Source: an uncultured Bacilli bacterium (GTDB lineage: Bacteria > Bacillota_I > Bacilli_A > RF39 > UBA660). From it: a DNA stretch of 58,728 nucleotides. The translations under genes were made by a program, and so were the position numbers. The notes beneath the pieces were generated by a model. It was not told the DNA's origin and ran no database searches. It worked only from the letters and a program-made list of their open reading frames with translations. Every line of letters begins with the position of its first letter. Position 1 is the first letter of the stretch. Positions 11,805 through 52,719 of the stretch are shown one piece after another. The stretch spans positions 1 through 58,728 of the forward strand of contig CALVXO010000008.1 of the NCBI GenBank assembly GCA_944371325.1, in the 5' to 3' direction.

Positions 11805-13508
11805 ATGTATAAAAAGCACAAAGGTTTTACATTAATTGAATTATTAGCAGTAATTATTATTTTAGCAATAGTAGCTTTAATAGCTACACCAATAATATTA
11901 GATGTGGTGGAAGATGCAAGAATAACAGCTGGTAGATCAGAAGCAAATATGATATTAGGTGGAATAAATAATTATTGTGCTAGTGAAGATATGAAATATC
12001 AATTAGATAATAGTTATAAAAGAATATGTACATCAAGTATGGACGCAAATAATGTAAAAGATATGGTTAATTTAGGAAATGCAACAATAGATAAAATAAC
12101 ATATAATGGATCTAAATTAACTGAATTGGTTATAACAAGCAATAATCATAAATTTACATTATGTCCAAGTGGACAATTTGCAACGGATGATGAAGGTTGT
12201 CCAAGAGACCCTAATTCTTTAATTACAAAATTATTAGGACAATATAAAGAAGGCGAAACAGCAGGATTAGTAAAAGATAGTACAAATCCAAATTTATATT
12301 ATTATACTGGAAGTAATGAAGAAGTTGGTAATAACTTTTTATGGTATGGAGGCCACCAATGGAGGGTATTAGAATTTGATGTGAGTGCTAATGCTGTAAC
12401 ATTAATAAACCAACAACCATTAACAGCTATTCAACCAGCAAGTGCAGTTGCAGTATGGACAACTCAAGAGGAATATGAATCAAGTTATATCAACACATGG
12501 TTAACTGATTATTTTTGGAATAGTTTAGATAGTAGTATTCAAAAAAATATATTAGATAGTACATTTAATGTAGGAATATATACAGATATAGACGAAATTA
12601 CGACAACTCAAAAAGTAGGATTATTAGATGAGGAGCAATATAAAAGGGCAGGAGAAGCTAATTCATTCTTAGATATAAAAGATTATTTTTGGTTAGGTAA
12701 TAGATATAGTTCGTCTAGCGTTCGCTACGTCTATTACAATGGCAACCTCAGCAACCTTAGTCCGTCGAGCAGTTACGGCGTGCGTGCAGTTATAAAAATT
12801 TCTGATATAACCATCATCGGAGGAGATGGTACTCTTGCAAGTAATTATCAAGTAGGAAATAAAGCGACAAATACAGATAATGTTCAAGTAGGAGAATATA
12901 TCAATGTACCATATAGTGGAAGTGATAGTGCATGTGGAAGTGATAATATGTGTACATTTAGAGTGGTAAGTAAAGATAGTAATAGTATTAAAGTAGTACT
13001 AAATGGATTACTTCCAACAACAAGTAAATATGGAAGTTCAACAACAATAAGTACAAGTCATACAATATATACACCACTTAATACATTTGCTGAAGGAATA
13101 AGTGACATATATCGATATACAGGCAAAAAAACATTTTATATAGGAGATTATCCATCAACTGCTACAAATTATAAAGATGTACAAGATGAAACATTGGAAG
13201 CAAGTGTTGGATTACCAATAGTGGGAGAGATGTTCAGTGGAAATGACATTGATTTAAGTACATCAAGTATCAAAACGTTTGTAGATGTAAATACAATAGA
13301 AAACCCAACTACATCAGATTACTATTGGACAATGAATAGATATAGTTCGTCTGACGTTCGCAACGTCAATTACAATGGCCTCCTCCTCGACCTTAGTCCT
13401 TCGAACAATAGCGGCGTGCGTGCAGTTATATATCTGAAGTCAGGGACTTCAGCCATAACCTTCACTGGAGGTGAAGGTACTCCAAATTCACCATATGTAT
13501 TACAATAA
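11805..13508 (+). CDS. DGR target 1: prepilin-like protein with two variable C-type-lectin-like domains
   Basis: 567 aa. A type IV prepilin leader (KG before FTLIELLAVIII, then a single hydrophobic helix) suggests cleavage by a prepilin peptidase and display at the surface or on a pilus. Two related modules follow, each with a motif like HQWRVLEF or CTFRVVSK and ending in a GVRAVI segment typical of DGR formylglycine-generating-enzyme/C-type-lectin-fold domains. Residues 301-328 (VR1) and 513-540 (VR2) match the template repeat at 13603-13688, with differences mainly at template adenines. AGGAG (11785-11789) is 15 nt from ATG, somewhat far. A paralogue with two more VRs lies at 51076. The ligand is unknown. 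Confidence 0.93.
   Translation: MYKKHKGFTLIELLAVIIILAIVALIATPIILDVVEDARITAGRSEANMILGGINNYCASEDMKYQLDNSYKRICTSSMDANNVKDMVNLGNATIDKITYNGSKLTELVITSNNHKFTLCPSGQFATDDEGCPRDPNSLITKLLGQYKEGETAGLVKDSTNPNLYYYTGSNEEVGNNFLWYGGHQWRVLEFDVSANAVTLINQQPLTAIQPASAVAVWTTQEEYESSYINTWLTDYFWNSLDSSIQKNILDSTFNVGIYTDIDEITTTQKVGLLDEEQYKRAGEANSFLDIKDYFWLGNRYSSSSVRYVYYNGNLSNLSPSSSYGVRAVIKISDITIIGGDGTLASNYQVGNKATNTDNVQVGEYINVPYSGSDSACGSDNMCTFRVVSKDSNSIKVVLNGLLPTTSKYGSSTTISTSHTIYTPLNTFAEGISDIYRYTGKKTFYIGDYPSTATNYKDVQDETLEASVGLPIVGEMFSGNDIDLSTSSIKTFVDVNTIENPTTSDYYWTMNRYSSSDVRNVNYNGLLLDLSPSNNSGVRAVIYLKSGTSAITFTGGEGTPNSPYVLQ
12704..12789 (+). repeat. DGR variable repeat VR1
   Basis: Aligned without gaps to the TR at 13603-13688. 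I count 14 differences, 10 at TR adenines. The four others (TR 13623, 13626, 13633, 13653) are shared with VR2 and point to TR change. The constant 3' end GGCGTGCGTGCAG is identical to the TR. The repeat is about half G+C inside an A/T-rich gene. Confidence 0.93.
12810..12830 (+). other. Hairpin 20 nt downstream of VR1
   Basis: ACCATC (12810-12815) pairs with GATGGT (12825-12830). Equivalent hairpins follow the other three VRs with changed but still pairing stems. A hairpin just past the VR is needed for efficient target recognition in the BPP-1 phage DGR, so the same role is inferred. Confidence 0.6.
13340..13425 (+). repeat. DGR variable repeat VR2
   Basis: Second VR of target 1, aligned to TR 13603-13688. 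I count 17 differences, 11 at TR adenines. Non-adenine differences are at TR 13623, 13626, 13633, 13653, 13663 and 13671. The 3' end GGCGTGCGTGCAG is retained. It encodes residues 513-540. Confidence 0.92.
13434..13478 (+). other. Two hairpins downstream of VR2
   Basis: CTGAAGTC/GACTTCAG (13434-13452, loop AGG) is followed by ACCTTCAC/GTGAAGGT (13458-13478, 5-nt loop). Both stems are perfect 8-bp pairings. The first recurs after VR4; the second recurs after every VR with stem changes on both arms. Confidence 0.65.
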
Positions 13509-13534: not shown

Positions 13535-13858
13535 GTATAAACGAAGAAAAGACACACCTTGCCGATGAAAAGGGCAAGGTGAGGGGATATGGGTGTAAGG
13601 CTATATAGTTCGTCTAACGTTCTCAGCGTAAACAACAATGGCAACCTCAACAGCAATAGTCCGTCGAACAGTAACGGCGTGCGTGCAGATTCCTTTTAAA
13701 CTGAGATTTATATGACCAAGGTTATGTAAATAGAAGCACTAGGAAACAAGCCTTATTCCCTAGGTATAAACCCTAAAAATATTAGTGATAGTACAACTAG
13801 AATAAAAGTGGTTTAGTAGAGTAAAATCGAAAAATCGCTTTTTCTTTTGTATTTTTTT
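13535..13858 (+). ncRNA. Candidate DGR template RNA region (no protein gene)
   Basis: This 13509-13917 intergenic stretch holds the template RNA. A possible promoter is TTACAA (13500-13505) and AATAAT (13523-13528), 17-bp spacer. A perfect 9-bp hairpin (CACCTTGCC/GGCAAGGTG, 13555-13581, no T-run) precedes the TR at 13603-13688. Downstream are a CTAGG/CCTAG stem (13739-13763) and a weak GAAAAA/TTTTTC stem followed by T-rich sequence (13829-13858), a likely terminator. DGR RNAs need the sequence between TR and RT to prime cDNA synthesis. RNA ends are inferred. Confidence 0.6.
13603..13688 (+). repeat. DGR template repeat (TR)
   Basis: An 86-bp near-copy of VR1-VR4, outside any gene, between target 1 and the RT operon. 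Its central part is a run of AAC/AAT (Asn) codons if read in the target frame, the design that gives maximal amino-acid choice under adenine mutagenesis. It ends in GGCGTGCGTGCAG, identical to all four VRs. It differs from all four VRs at 13623 (T versus G) and 13626 (G versus A). Confidence 0.95.
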
Positions 13859-13868
13859 GAATAAACAC

Positions 13869-13900
13869 TTGACAACGTGTGTGTGTGTGTGTGTGATAAT
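13869..13900 (+). promoter_or_regulatory. RT-operon promoter with a (GT)9 spacer
   Basis: A perfect -35 TTGACA (13869-13874) and a 5/6 -10 GATAAT (13895-13900) are 20 bp apart. The spacer is almost wholly nine GT units (13877-13894). The start of transcription would be near 13907, only about 11 nt before the GTG start. Loss of one or two units would give spacers of 18 or 16 bp, near the optimum. Slippage could therefore switch expression. Confidence 0.7.
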
Positions 13901-13917: not shown

Positions 13918-14328
13918 GTGAGATTAGTTGATTTAAGAAATGAATTAAAAGAAGAATATAAAGATGTAGTTATATTTATGAGATATGGTAATTTTTATCG
14001 GGTATTTGATGATGATTGTTATATTGTAAGTGGATTATTTGGTTATAGAATATATGATAATAAAACAGGTTTTCCTATATCTGAATATAATAAAGTAAAA
14101 GAGGTATTAGATAAAAATAATATTAGCTATATATTTTATAATATATGTGAAAGTATAAAAGAATTAAATAGTTATGATCTAGTATTGAATTATTATAAAA
14201 ATAATTTTTATAAAAAGGATTTAATTAATATATTAATAGAATATGATGTTATAAATGAATTAGAAAAAATATTAAGATTAATTGATAAAGATAAGTTAAA
14301 TAAATTAAGAAAAAAGTATGAAAGATAA
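13918..14328 (+). CDS. DGR accessory protein with MutS domain I-like fold (MSL)
   Basis: 136 aa, GTG start after AGGTGG. The segment VIFMRYGNFYRVFDDD (residues about 18-33), followed by GFPISEYNKVKEVL, resembles the mismatch-contacting N-terminal domain of MutS (FFRxGDFYExF...). MutS-like proteins have been reported as DGR accessory genes. The rest is helical and Lys-rich. It overlaps avd by 11 nt. Its role, perhaps handling cDNA/target heteroduplex, is inference. Confidence 0.75.
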   Translation: MRLVDLRNELKEEYKDVVIFMRYGNFYRVFDDDCYIVSGLFGYRIYDNKTGFPISEYNKVKEVLDKNNISYIFYNICESIKELNSYDLVLNYYKNNFYKKDLINILIEYDVINELEKILRLIDKDKLNKLRKKYER

Positions 14329-14659
14329 ATTTTATATAATAATTGAAGTTAAGAAAACTATTAATTATATAAATAAAATTATAGTTAATTATCCTAAGGT
14401 AGAATATGTATTAAAAAATAATATTGAGTTAAATCGTTATAAGTTATTAGAATATTGTTATAAAGCTAATATTTTAAAGGATAATAGGTTAAATTATCAA
14501 AAGGAAATAATAATAATTATAAGGATGATTGATTATTATTTTTATTTAAGTTATTTAAATAAATTAATTAATAAAAACAAATATGAAAGTATTAGTAATT
14601 ATTTGTTAAATATAACTAAATATGTTTATGGGTGGATTAGAAGTGAAAAGAGTAAATAA
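14318..14659 (+). CDS. avd: DGR accessory variability determinant (Avd-like)
   Basis: 113 aa, all-helical and basic. NYPKVEYVL near residue 25 and the C-terminal ITKYVYGWIRSEK match the Avd four-helix-bundle pattern (PK.. near helix 1, GW at the end). Avd forms a pentamer that binds the RT and the template RNA. It overlaps both the MutS-like gene and the RT. Confidence 0.8.
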   Translation: MKDKFYIIIEVKKTINYINKIIVNYPKVEYVLKNNIELNRYKLLEYCYKANILKDNRLNYQKEIIIIIRMIDYYFYLSYLNKLINKNKYESISNYLLNITKYVYGWIRSEKSK

Positions 14660-15620
14660 TTTATATAATCAATTATTTGATATTGATTTTATTTTAAATA
14701 CTTATAAAATTATTAAAAAGAATACAAAAAATAAAAATAAATTAGAAAAGTTTGAGGAAAATTTATCGATTAATTTAATTGATATTAAAGATAAAATAGG
14801 TAAGAATATTGATAAATATAATTTATTTATGATTTATGAACCTAAAGAAAGATTAATATTAAGTTTAAATTTAAAGGATAAAATCATTAATCATATGGTT
14901 GGATATATTTTATTTGATGTTTTAGAAAAGAGTTTAATTGATAGTAATGTAGCTGTTAGAAAAAACAAAGGTACTAGTTATGGTATTAAGTTAATAAAAA
15001 AATATATTAAAGAATTAAACTATAATTATTATTGTTTAAAGATTGATATTAAAAAGTATTTTTATAGTATTAATCATAATATTTTAAAAGATTTATTAAA
15101 TAAAAAAATAAAGGATAAATTATTTTTAGATATTGTTTATAAAATAATTGATAGTACTAATAGTGATTATATATTTGAATATGCAAACAAACATAATATA
15201 AATTATTTAAAAAAAGGATATGGATTAAGTATTGGTAATTTAACTAGTCAAATATTAGGTATATTTTATTTAAATGATTTAGATCATTATATTAAAGAAG
15301 AATTAAAAATAAAGTATTATATTAGATATATGGATGATATGGTATTATTTCATAAGAATAAAGATTATTTAAAATATTGTTTAGATAAAATTATAATTTA
15401 TTTAAAAGAATATGATTTAGAATTAAATAACAAAACTATTATAACTAAAAATAGTTTATGTTTTTTAGGTTATCGATTTTATAATAAAAAAATTAAAATA
15501 TTAAGTAAAAATAAAAGAAGAATATATAAAAAATTAAGAATATTAAAATATAAAGATTATAACAAATATATTAAATCATTAAGTAGTTATTATGGTTATT
15601 TTAAAGTACAGAAGTATTAA
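14643..15620 (+). CDS. DGR reverse transcriptase
   Basis: 325 aa. RT motifs in order: KIDIKKYFYSI (catalytic Asp), GLSIGNLTSQ, where DGR RTs have (I/L)GxxxSQ instead of the usual QGxxxSP, YIRYMDDMVLF (YxDD), and a LGYRF thumb-side motif. It copies the TR RNA with errors at adenines. GTG 14643 was chosen because GGTGG at 14631-14635 is 7 nt upstream; an in-frame ATG at 14622 would deepen the avd overlap. The gene is very A/T-rich. Confidence 0.95.
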   Translation: MKRVNNLYNQLFDIDFILNTYKIIKKNTKNKNKLEKFEENLSINLIDIKDKIGKNIDKYNLFMIYEPKERLILSLNLKDKIINHMVGYILFDVLEKSLIDSNVAVRKNKGTSYGIKLIKKYIKELNYNYYCLKIDIKKYFYSINHNILKDLLNKKIKDKLFLDIVYKIIDSTNSDYIFEYANKHNINYLKKGYGLSIGNLTSQILGIFYLNDLDHYIKEELKIKYYIRYMDDMVLFHKNKDYLKYCLDKIIIYLKEYDLELNNKTIITKNSLCFLGYRFYNKKIKILSKNKRRIYKKLRILKYKDYNKYIKSLSSYYGYFKVQKY

Positions 15621-34284: not shown

Positions 34285-35352
34285 ATGCGTTATGACAAAA
34301 TAAATGGAAACAAAATAATGTGTTGTGTACCACTAAAAAAGCTATATCTCGTTCCAGGACCTCAAGGTCCAACAGGACCAACGGGACCTATGGGGACTCC
34401 TGGATTAGTAGGAACAACTGGTCCAACTGGCCCAACAGGGCCTACTGGTGTAGCTGGTTCAATAGGCCCAACAGGACCAACTGGAGCAACAGGTATGAAT
34501 GGTTCTATAGGTCCAACTGGTGTAACTGGTCCAACTGGTGCAACTGGCTCAGCAGGGCCAACAGGTCCAATAGGATTAACTGGTGCAACCGGCCCAACAG
34601 GTGCTACTGGCCCAACTGGGGCAACAGGTCCAACTGGAAGTGTTGAGTCCAATCCGTATAATTTATATGTTCAGTCATCTGCACAACCAGGTGGAGATGG
34701 AAGTCAAGTTTCACCATTTCAAACAATACAACAAGCACTAGCAGTAGCGCAACCTAATGGTATTATAAATGTTTTAAGTGGGACTTATCCTATTACAAGT
34801 CAAATTAATATAAATAAACCAGGATTGACGATAAAAGGAAGAGCTGGAGCGGAAATTTTACTTCAAGCTCCAGTAGTTCCGTTTTTAATTAGTAGTGATA
34901 ACACAACAATTGATGGACTTACGATGACTAGTGATCAAGCATATCCTGTTGAGTTTATTCAAATTGCAGGAAATGGAGATCAAATTCTAAACTGCCAAAT
35001 ATACGGGCCAACTCAATCTGGAGATTCATCAACATGGGTAGTAAATAGAGGATTTGTGACTCAAGCAAGTACAACAAATTTGTTAGTAAGAAATAATATT
35101 TTTCACACTTTACGTCAGCCTGCATATTTAAATCCTAATTCTACAGGGAGTATTATAGATAATGTTGTATATAATACCCGTGGATATGTAGTTGATCGAG
35201 CTATATTTTTATTTTCTGGAAATTCTTGGGGTATTCCTGAAAATGCCGTAGATATTGCATTACTTGCAGGAACTATATCAGGTGCTCCTTATGATCCACT
35301 TTCAGCTTTAGAAGCAAGTAATAGTTCTGCAACAATTAGTGATCAAAGATAA
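34285..35352 (+). CDS. Collagen-like repeat protein with a parallel beta-helix C-terminal domain
   Basis: 355 aa. After 24 residues, about 31 Gly-X-Y triplets (mostly GPT, GAT) run to about residue 118. Then comes a domain with the right-handed beta-helix pattern ([11 protein letters not shown]-like start, [34 protein letters not shown]). Bacterial collagen-like proteins of this kind (BclA and relatives) form exosporium filaments, and coat genes lie just upstream. No signal peptide is seen, as in spore proteins. Surface location is inferred. Confidence 0.85.
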
Positions 35353-51052: not shown

Positions 51053-51075
51053 ATTAATAATAGGAGATGATAATA

Positions 51076-52719
51076 TTGAAAAAAGCTTTCACTTTAGTTG
51101 AATTATTAGGAGTGATTATTGTACTAGGAGTAATAGCTTTAATAGCATTTCCTATAGTAAATAAATCAATAAAAACTAGTAAAGAAGATTCTTTAAATAG
51201 TATTATAAAAACTATTGAAAAAGCTGCTGAAGAGTATGTAGTTCGTGAACATATGGGATATACAACATCATATGATAAAGTTAATCTAGATGAATTAATT
51301 GCAAAAGGTTATTTAAAAGATAATATAATTAATCCAGTTACTAATGATAAAATGAATGGTTGTGTTGTTTATAAATGGCATGATGATTATAATCAATATA
51401 AATATGAATATCAAGATCCATGTACAGTAAAAACTTTAATTGGAACTTTATTAGGACAATATAATGAATCTAATACAACAGGGTTAGTAAAAGATAGTAC
51501 CAATGAAAATTTATATTATTATACAGGAACTAATGAAGAAGTAAGTAATAATTTTTTATGGTATGGAGGCCATCAATGGCGAGTATTAGAGTTTGATACA
51601 AGTGCTAATACATTAACATTAATAACTCAGCAACCATTAACGGCTATTCACCCAGCAAGTGCAGTATGGGAGTCACAAGAAGCATATGAATCAAGCTATA
51701 TTAACACATGGTTAAATGAATATTTTTGGAATAGTTTAGATAGTAGTATACAAAGTAATATTAAAGATAGTACATTTAATGTAGGAATATATGATAATGT
51801 AAGTGAAATAACAACAGTTCAAAAAGTAGGATTATTAGATGAAGACCAATATATAAGAGCTGGAAGTACAGATCATTTCTTGGATATAAAAGATTATTGG
51901 TGGTTAGGAAATAGAGCTGATTCGTCTAACGTTCGCAACGTATACTACAATGGCGACCTCCGCAGCGATAGTACTAGGGCTGCGTACGGCGTGCGTGCAG
52001 TTATAAAAATATCTGATATAACCATCACCAAAGGGGATGGTACTCTTGAGAACAATTATCAAGTAGCAAACAAAACAACGAATACAGATAATGTTCAAGT
52101 AGGAGAATATATCAATGTACCATATAGCGGAAGTGATAAAGCTTGTGGAGAAGATAATATGTGTACATTTAGAGTGGTAAGTAAAAATAATGACGGTATC
52201 AAAGTTGTATTAAATGGATTGCTTCCAACAACAAGTGCATGGGCAGATAGTGCAAGTGATAATATAACAACAAACGATTTAATATATACGAATGTATTAA
52301 ATGGATTTATAGAAAATATAGATAGTGAATATATAACAACAGGAACATATGGAGTAGGAATGTATGCAATTGGAAATAGTTATACAGTACCACAAAGTAC
52401 AACAATAACTGCAAGTATTGGATTACCAACAGTGGGAGAGATGTTCAGTGGAAATGATATAGATTTAAGTACATCAAGTACCAAAACATTTGTAGATGTA
52501 AACATAATAGAAAATCCAACAATATCAAGTTACTATTGGATAATGAATAGGTCTAGTTCGTCTAACGTTCGCAACGTCATCAGCTATGGCCACCTCAACT
52601 TCGATAGTCCGTCGGGCAGTTACGGCGTGCGTGCAGTTATATATATGAAGTCAGGGACTTCAGCCATAACCTTCTCCGGTGGAGAAGGTACTCCAAATTC
52701 ACCATATATATTAAAATAA
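51076..52719 (+). CDS. DGR target 2 (distal): prepilin-like protein with two variable domains
   Basis: 547 aa, paralogue of the target at 11805. Prepilin leader KKA before FTLVELLGVIIV (Ala instead of Gly at -1), a hydrophobic helix, then the same two modules (HQWRVLEFD..., CTFRVVSK...). VR3 encodes residues 283-308 and VR4 residues 495-520. TTG 51076 was chosen as AGGAG (51062-51066) lies 9 nt upstream; the in-frame ATG 51067 abuts that site. No TR or RT lies nearby, so it must be served in trans by the cassette 37 kb away. Confidence 0.92.
   Translation: MKKAFTLVELLGVIIVLGVIALIAFPIVNKSIKTSKEDSLNSIIKTIEKAAEEYVVREHMGYTTSYDKVNLDELIAKGYLKDNIINPVTNDKMNGCVVYKWHDDYNQYKYEYQDPCTVKTLIGTLLGQYNESNTTGLVKDSTNENLYYYTGTNEEVSNNFLWYGGHQWRVLEFDTSANTLTLITQQPLTAIHPASAVWESQEAYESSYINTWLNEYFWNSLDSSIQSNIKDSTFNVGIYDNVSEITTVQKVGLLDEDQYIRAGSTDHFLDIKDYWWLGNRADSSNVRNVYYNGDLRSDSTRAAYGVRAVIKISDITITKGDGTLENNYQVANKTTNTDNVQVGEYINVPYSGSDKACGEDNMCTFRVVSKNNDGIKVVLNGLLPTTSAWADSASDNITTNDLIYTNVLNGFIENIDSEYITTGTYGVGMYAIGNSYTVPQSTTITASIGLPTVGEMFSGNDIDLSTSSTKTFVDVNIIENPTISSYYWIMNRSSSSNVRNVISYGHLNFDSPSGSYGVRAVIYMKSGTSAITFSGGEGTPNSPYILK
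51921..52000 (+). repeat. DGR variable repeat VR3
   Basis: Aligned to TR 13609-13688. I count 10 differences at TR adenines and 9 elsewhere. Two of the latter (TR 13623, 13626) are common to all VRs. The other seven are clustered at TR 13661-13672, where VR3 reads ACTAGGGCTGCG instead of CCGTCGAACAGT. The 3' end GGCGTGCGTGCAG is intact. Confidence 0.9.
52021..52041 (+). other. Hairpin 20 nt downstream of VR3
   Basis: ACCATCACC/GGGGATGGT with loop AAA, one mismatch in nine pairs. Same spacing from the VR end as the hairpin after VR1. Confidence 0.6.
52554..52636 (+). repeat. DGR variable repeat VR4
   Basis: Aligned to TR 13606-13688. I count 10 differences at TR adenines and only three elsewhere (13623, 13626, 13653), all places where the TR itself seems to have changed. 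It is therefore a clean record of adenine mutagenesis. Encodes residues up to 520 of target 2. Confidence 0.93.
52646..52689 (+). other. Two hairpins downstream of VR4
   Basis: TGAAGTC/GACTTCA with loop AGG (52646-52662), then ACCTTCTCC/GGAGAAGGT with loop GGT (52669-52689), a perfect 9-bp stem. The second differs from its VR2 counterpart on both arms and still pairs. Confidence 0.65.

Follow-up and report, generated by a model that had tools for sequence, protein, structure and literature searches.

Variable repeats that keep bases of older templates in a diversity-generating retroelement of an uncultured Bacilli bacterium

Contig C8 (CALVXO010000008.1) belongs to the 1.57 Mb, 77-contig draft genome (G000; GCA_944371325.1) of an uncultured Bacilli bacterium, and the window analysed here is this entire contig of 58,728 nucleotides. 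It carries a cellular diversity-generating retroelement (DGR) that is otherwise standard, in which a target gene, a leader hairpin, the template repeat (TR) that we call TR1 (13603–13688, + strand) and an RNA spacer precede an operon for MSL, Avd and a reverse transcriptase (RT). We find that TR1 no longer agrees with the variable repeats (VRs) of its own genome at four positions. The explanation we favour, and regard as probable, is that TR1 gained four point changes on the branch of this species, that the VRs retain the non-adenine bases of older templates, and that homing is intermittent and involves several TR copies. The drift of TR1, with VRs that keep an older template, is strongly supported by a sister species in which the older bases are still present in the template.

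TR1 and the variable repeats differ at four sites

TR1 and the four VRs of the window were aligned gap-free, and site counts were taken over the 11 distinct sequences among the 12 VRs of the genome. A sequence-only reading of the window had reported three discordant sites, all of which we recover. At 13623, TR1 has T where all four window VRs, and 11 of 11 distinct VRs genome-wide, have G. At 13626 it has G where the window VRs all have A (seven A, three G and one T among the 11), and at 13653 it has G where the window VRs have A, A, G and T (eight A, two T and one G among the 11). A fourth drifted site, 13630, had been overlooked: TR1 has A there and eight of the 11 VRs have C. Conversion of adenine to C is seen in only 6 of 168 template-adenine cases, and the older template therefore had C at this position.

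For likelihoods we used the six VRs that possess a TR1-type 3′ half (CCGTCGAACAGT, with changes at adenines), excluding VR C8c. The log10 likelihood ratio for the ancestral over the present base is 12.9 at 13623, 5.8 at 13626, 2.0 at 13630 and 11.1 at 13653. The six VRs differ pairwise at 10–18 of the 28 template adenines, so each was written in its own event, and they are not copies of a single VR. When they are set against the TR of the sister species, 60 of 168 adenine cells and 8 of 348 non-adenine cells are changed, versus 22 of 354 non-adenine cells when they are set against TR1. VR C8a (12704–12789, + strand) has one non-adenine mismatch to the sister TR and four to TR1, and VR C8d (52551–52636, + strand) has none and three, respectively. 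At 13653 the TR1-type VRs carry A or T and never G. The absence of the present TR1 motif CTCAGC from the window VRs, also reported from the sequence, extends to the whole genus, where none of the 52 type-I VRs has T at 13623. In the reconstituted DGR of Bordetella phage BPP-1, non-adenine template changes are transferred in full (PMC12875486), and the template from which the VRs described here were written was therefore of the older kind.

A sister species retains the older template

The genus comparison covered 18 genomes, one per species. In the sister species (G015) the equivalent locus is collinear over 6.3 kb at 92%, and the RT is 96% identical in protein. As had been predicted for a close relative, its TR has CGCAAC, together with AACAACAAT. 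Only at 13623, 13626, 13630 and 13653 does it depart from TR1, each time with the base that had been predicted. G is also the base at 13623 in the remaining type-I TRs of the genus, and all but one of them have A at 13626. From the sister locus and these TRs it follows that TR1 is the derived copy, with the changes 13623 G>T, 13626 A>G, 13630 C>A and 13653 A>G. The proposal that the VRs record an older TR thus stands as far as the older bases go, which the sister TR confirms, but it needs amending in that the VRs point to several older templates and not to a single ancestor.

Translated in the VR frame, TR1 reads SNVLSVNNNGNLNSNSP and the sister TR SNVRNVNNNGNLNNNSP. The change at 13630 is silent. 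An Arg codon of the sister TR is a Leu codon in present TR1, and writing from present TR1 would place Leu at a codon that, across the genus, reads CGN in 47 of 52 type-I VRs, with T as its middle base in none of the 52. The divergence of the TR (4 of 86 positions) is similar to that of the leader, the spacer, the RT gene and mfd, which speaks against accelerated TR evolution. The rate of drift is ordinary, and the unusual part is that no VR has followed TR1. It had also been suggested that the changes remove mutable adenines. That is so for the two A>G sites, but there is no trend: 13630 C>A adds an adenine, the total only falls from 28 to 27, and directed adenine loss by drift is not supported.

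Other templates and rival explanations

The genome holds more than one template. A second TR with ancestral bases, named in the sequence-only reading as the finding that would speak against drift, is indeed present: TR2 (contig C12, 24888–24972, − strand) has CGCAAC and AACAAC. It lies in a complete unit of leader, TR, spacer and terminator that is without an RT on a 50-kb contig; RTs are found in this genome only on C8, plus one on C19 (14788–15741) that is 41% identical to the C8 DGR RT. The reading of TR2 is frameshifted by a 1-nt deletion. Its 3′ half (TTCTTCGAATACG) resembles that of only some VRs, namely C6a, with two non-adenine mismatches, and C8c and C9b, with three; none matches exactly. 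Judging from these alignments, TR2 could not have written the six TR1-type VRs whole. It is also an unlikely donor at 13653 of these VRs, because no more than 8 bases separate that site from the 3′ half specific to TR1. Two further spacer copies are found, one on C5 with a decayed TR and one on C10 (56143–56258) with its TR past the contig end.

Several observations speak against the ancestor of TR1 as the writer of the VRs. TR2 carries three of the four ancestral bases (13623, 13626 and 13653) within the same genome. The C10 TR, cut off by the end of its contig, could be the true writer. VRs C8a, C26a and C22b share a T at 13633 that occurs in no assembled TR of the genome. In the sister species, the four VRs, in two targets, lack the 3′ half of the RT-adjacent TR, so that adjacency to the RT is no guarantee of authorship. 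The three VRs with T at 13633 differ from one another only at adenines, 12–14 of them, and the same T is present in two TRs of another species (G014); at least one further template therefore existed here or is absent from the assembly. Some VRs may have been written by another, unassembled TR. TR2, the C10 unit and the shared T at 13633, together with the frequent occurrence of orphan TRs across the genus, favour an explanation in which one or several TR copies other than TR1, still with ancestral bases, wrote the VRs, TR1 being a decaying template and not the main writer. We consider this explanation unlikely, though by no means negligible. The six TR1-type VRs have 5–6 non-adenine mismatches to the 3′ half of TR2 versus 0–1 for the TR1-type half, and the template that fits them best is the sister TR at TR1’s own locus, so the right template was once here. 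Since TR1 is shown to be derived by the outgroup and the sister locus, and since TR2 is frameshifted and lacks the 3′ half of the six VRs, TR2 does not overturn the drift of TR1.

It might also be that present TR1 is still used and that selection removes VRs carrying its Leu codon, leaving only old VRs to be seen. The retention of Arg in 47 of 52 type-I VRs would fit such selection, but the G at 13653 falls in a freely variable codon, where the resulting Ser should be tolerated, and yet it is present in 0 of the 6 TR1-type VRs; we judge this explanation very unlikely. Errors of assembly or sequencing in TR1 are a slighter possibility still. The genome is a draft, metagenome-type assembly with repeats, and reads are needed to exclude sequencing error. 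However, T at 13623 is found in no other copy and so cannot be produced by mixing of TR and VR reads, four separate errors, one of them silent and all within the TR, are improbable, and the divergence of the TR equals that of its flanks. Mutation of TR1 by its own retroelement, through homing into the TR, is scarcely credible: A>G, the most frequent change in these VRs, accounts for two of the four, but the others are G>T and C>A, and only 2 of 28 adenines are changed in TR1 versus 9–12 per VR.

Proposed intermittent homing and dispersed templates

With drift of TR1 as the preferred reading, the ancestor of TR1 is the likely author of the six TR1-type VRs, which would not have been rewritten from present TR1 since. 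Template and VRs would fall out of step in this way if homing were intermittent. The several TR copies of a genome would write, decay, swap loci and be replaced, and the VRs would remain as a record of past templates.

Non-adenine mismatch between TR and VRs is a pattern of the group and not peculiar to this genome. TR units are matched in 17 of the 18 genomes and an orthologous RT in only nine; many units are kilobases from any RT, and RT-less “orphan” TRs are common. Among genomes with an assembled TR, 39 of 71 VRs fit the TR of another species better in the 3′ part than any TR of their own genome, a figure that is inflated by missing TRs. For example, two VRs on contig C28 of G006 have zero non-adenine mismatches to the TR of G013 and three to their own. 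On contig C39 of G009, VRs match their RT-less TR with zero non-adenine mismatches, and no orthologous RT is assembled in that genome. The median non-adenine mismatch to neighbouring VRs is 0.05 for RT-adjacent and 0.17 for orphan TRs (p = 0.086), a difference from a small, non-independent sample that we do not claim.

The settings of individual units are varied. The C10 TR unit is upstream of the S10 ribosomal operon, as is a unit in G013 (C49), and this is not found in most other species; TR units have therefore been inserted at different loci. The TR2 unit stands in front of a yvcK-like gene, and the same place is occupied by a type-II TR in the sister species (C15) and by a complete RT-bearing DGR cassette in another genus (G247). 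An older DGR locus may thus have left TR2 behind as a relic. In one species (G005, C26, 2425–2982) a relict RT containing a stop codon lies beside a spacer unit, an instance of RT loss.

Upstream of the MSL/Avd/RT operon of the window is a putative promoter, TTGACA-AC(GT)9-GATAAT (13869–13900, + strand), with a 20-bp spacer; a simple promoter scan limited to 16–18-bp spacers did not list it. In this genus all nine RT loci have a GT tract between the hexamers; the spacer measures 10, 18, 20 or 22 bp and varies between species, and the related genus of the same family (G247) has TTGACA-C(GT)7-TATTAT at the equivalent place. Among the genus loci fetched, GT tracts of at least five units occur only at the RT promoter. 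A repeat between the −35 and −10 elements is the classic design of a phase-variable promoter, and a 20-bp spacer is expected to be weak. The sequence pattern suggests that the GT tract is a candidate phase-variable DGR promoter with on/off switching, and a weak promoter of this kind would account for VRs that stayed as they were during the drift of TR1. The length-variable tract is thus a plausible switch behind intermittency.

From these patterns we infer that the element is active only intermittently, that orphan TRs are served in trans and that the promoter switches. We advance more tentatively the combined possibility that one RT operon, switched by slippage of the GT tract, serves dispersed RT-less templates, that long off periods let templates drift or break, and that VRs preserve templates that are extinct. 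If so, the history of the templates could be reconstructed from VRs, and the last homing events could be dated. Should RT-less TRs be served in trans, and should the GT tract act as a switch for the RT, the activity of the DGR would be a heritable on/off trait, which is directly testable.

Comparison with known systems

The C8 DGR is like that of phage BPP-1 in its homologous RT, for which the best PDB match is 8ub7 (7.3e-25), which we take to be the BPP-1 RT, in its Avd and in the adenine-directed transfer from TR to VR; in both, the 3′ end of TR and VR is C-rich and identical. Unlike the BPP-1 system, it is chromosomal, has pilin-like targets with two VRs each and a MutS-like accessory protein, and possesses several dispersed TR units, a GT-tract promoter and a TR that is out of step with its VRs. 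The dinucleotide tract between the hexamers, with a length that differs between species, recalls phase-varying promoters in general; here it stands before a DGR operon.

A close likeness to the pattern of templates is found in the DGRs of Treponema denticola, where different strains have variant TRs (with 81% identity or a one-base difference), targets are remote, and target genes persist in strains that lost RT and TR (PMC4891356). That study masked TR variants from the VR analysis, whereas here the VRs of one genome identify an older TR, and RT-less TR units occur alongside an RT-bearing locus. Genome surveys have found that some DGRs have more than one TR (PMC6642488); those TRs were counted within a single DGR-bearing sequence, whereas the complete RT-less units described here are on separate contigs and have a conserved leader, spacer and terminator. 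A literature search for orphan TRs or phase-variable DGRs returned nothing relevant, with most subscription journals outside its reach. Template evolution has been largely invisible in DGR studies, which compare a single TR with its VRs and mask non-adenine mismatches or call them noise. Here the VRs predicted an ancestral template that is still present in a sister species, which lets VRs document past templates and when homing last took place.

The locus and its targets

The first target gene (11805–13508, + strand; 567 aa) encodes a protein with a pilin-like N-terminus (N_methyl) and DUF6273, as identified from its ORF, Pfam and NCBIfam, and contains two VRs, C8a and C8b (13340–13425, + strand). 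The leader hairpin CACCTTGCC...GGCAAGGTG (13555–13581, + strand) is 5′ of TR1 and is kept in TR2 and 3′ of two other targets. The RNA spacer (13689–13850, + strand) is conserved and ends in a terminator-like hairpin; in an alignment of 17 units the mean column identity is 87% and the hairpin has two compensatory pairs. The Rfam family RT-14 (RF02921) aligns with the C8 spacer over its full length at 33.2 bits (E 0.0073), below the gathering score of 48.1, and none of the other units searched was matched by it at E values up to 0.05. A viral origin was considered and rejected: a search of viral contigs with the spacer pattern gave no match, and one with a 14-base pattern from present TR1 gave only noise, the pattern being too short.

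The operon begins with MSL (13918–14328, + strand; 136 aa), a small protein like MutS domain I (Pfam MutS_I, 1.9e-06). It is a stand-alone MutS domain I protein within a DGR operon and is 85% identical in amino acids between the sister species, versus 96% for Avd or RT. Avd (14318–14659, + strand; 113 aa) matches PHROG Avd at 1.1e-09 and NCBIfam DivGenRetAVD at 2.1e-09, under the curated cut-off of the latter. The RT (14622–15620, + strand; 332 aa) is intact, with YMDD and SIGNLTSQ motifs and a match to Pfam RVT_1 at 4.2e-19. Its gene differs from that of the sister species at 35 nucleotides, 8, 3 and 24 of them at codon positions 1, 2 and 3, a distribution indicative of purifying selection.

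The second target gene (51067–52719, + strand; 550 aa), recognised from its ORF, TR/VR alignment and Pfam, also has two VRs, C8c (51915–52000, + strand) and C8d. The VRs of the window targets sit in intact ORFs with DUF6273 matches, and more VR-bearing targets are found on contigs C6, C9, C12, C22 and C26. C8c is identical to one VR on C12 and lies within a 474-bp tract (51721–52194, + strand) of full identity to the C12 target gene. The two genes are about 87–92% identical on either side (245 of 280 and 275 of 300 flanking positions). By its sequence signature, this sharing is ordinary conversion between paralogous target genes, by which VRs move without a TR; VRs spread in this way are therefore not independent witnesses.

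Elsewhere in the window, tandem repeats with a 9-nt period occupy 34366–34638 within an ORF at 34285–35352. The contig start (4–146) consists of 36-nt tandem repeats containing TGTTTCACGTGAAAC-type palindromes, which resemble ParB parS sites.
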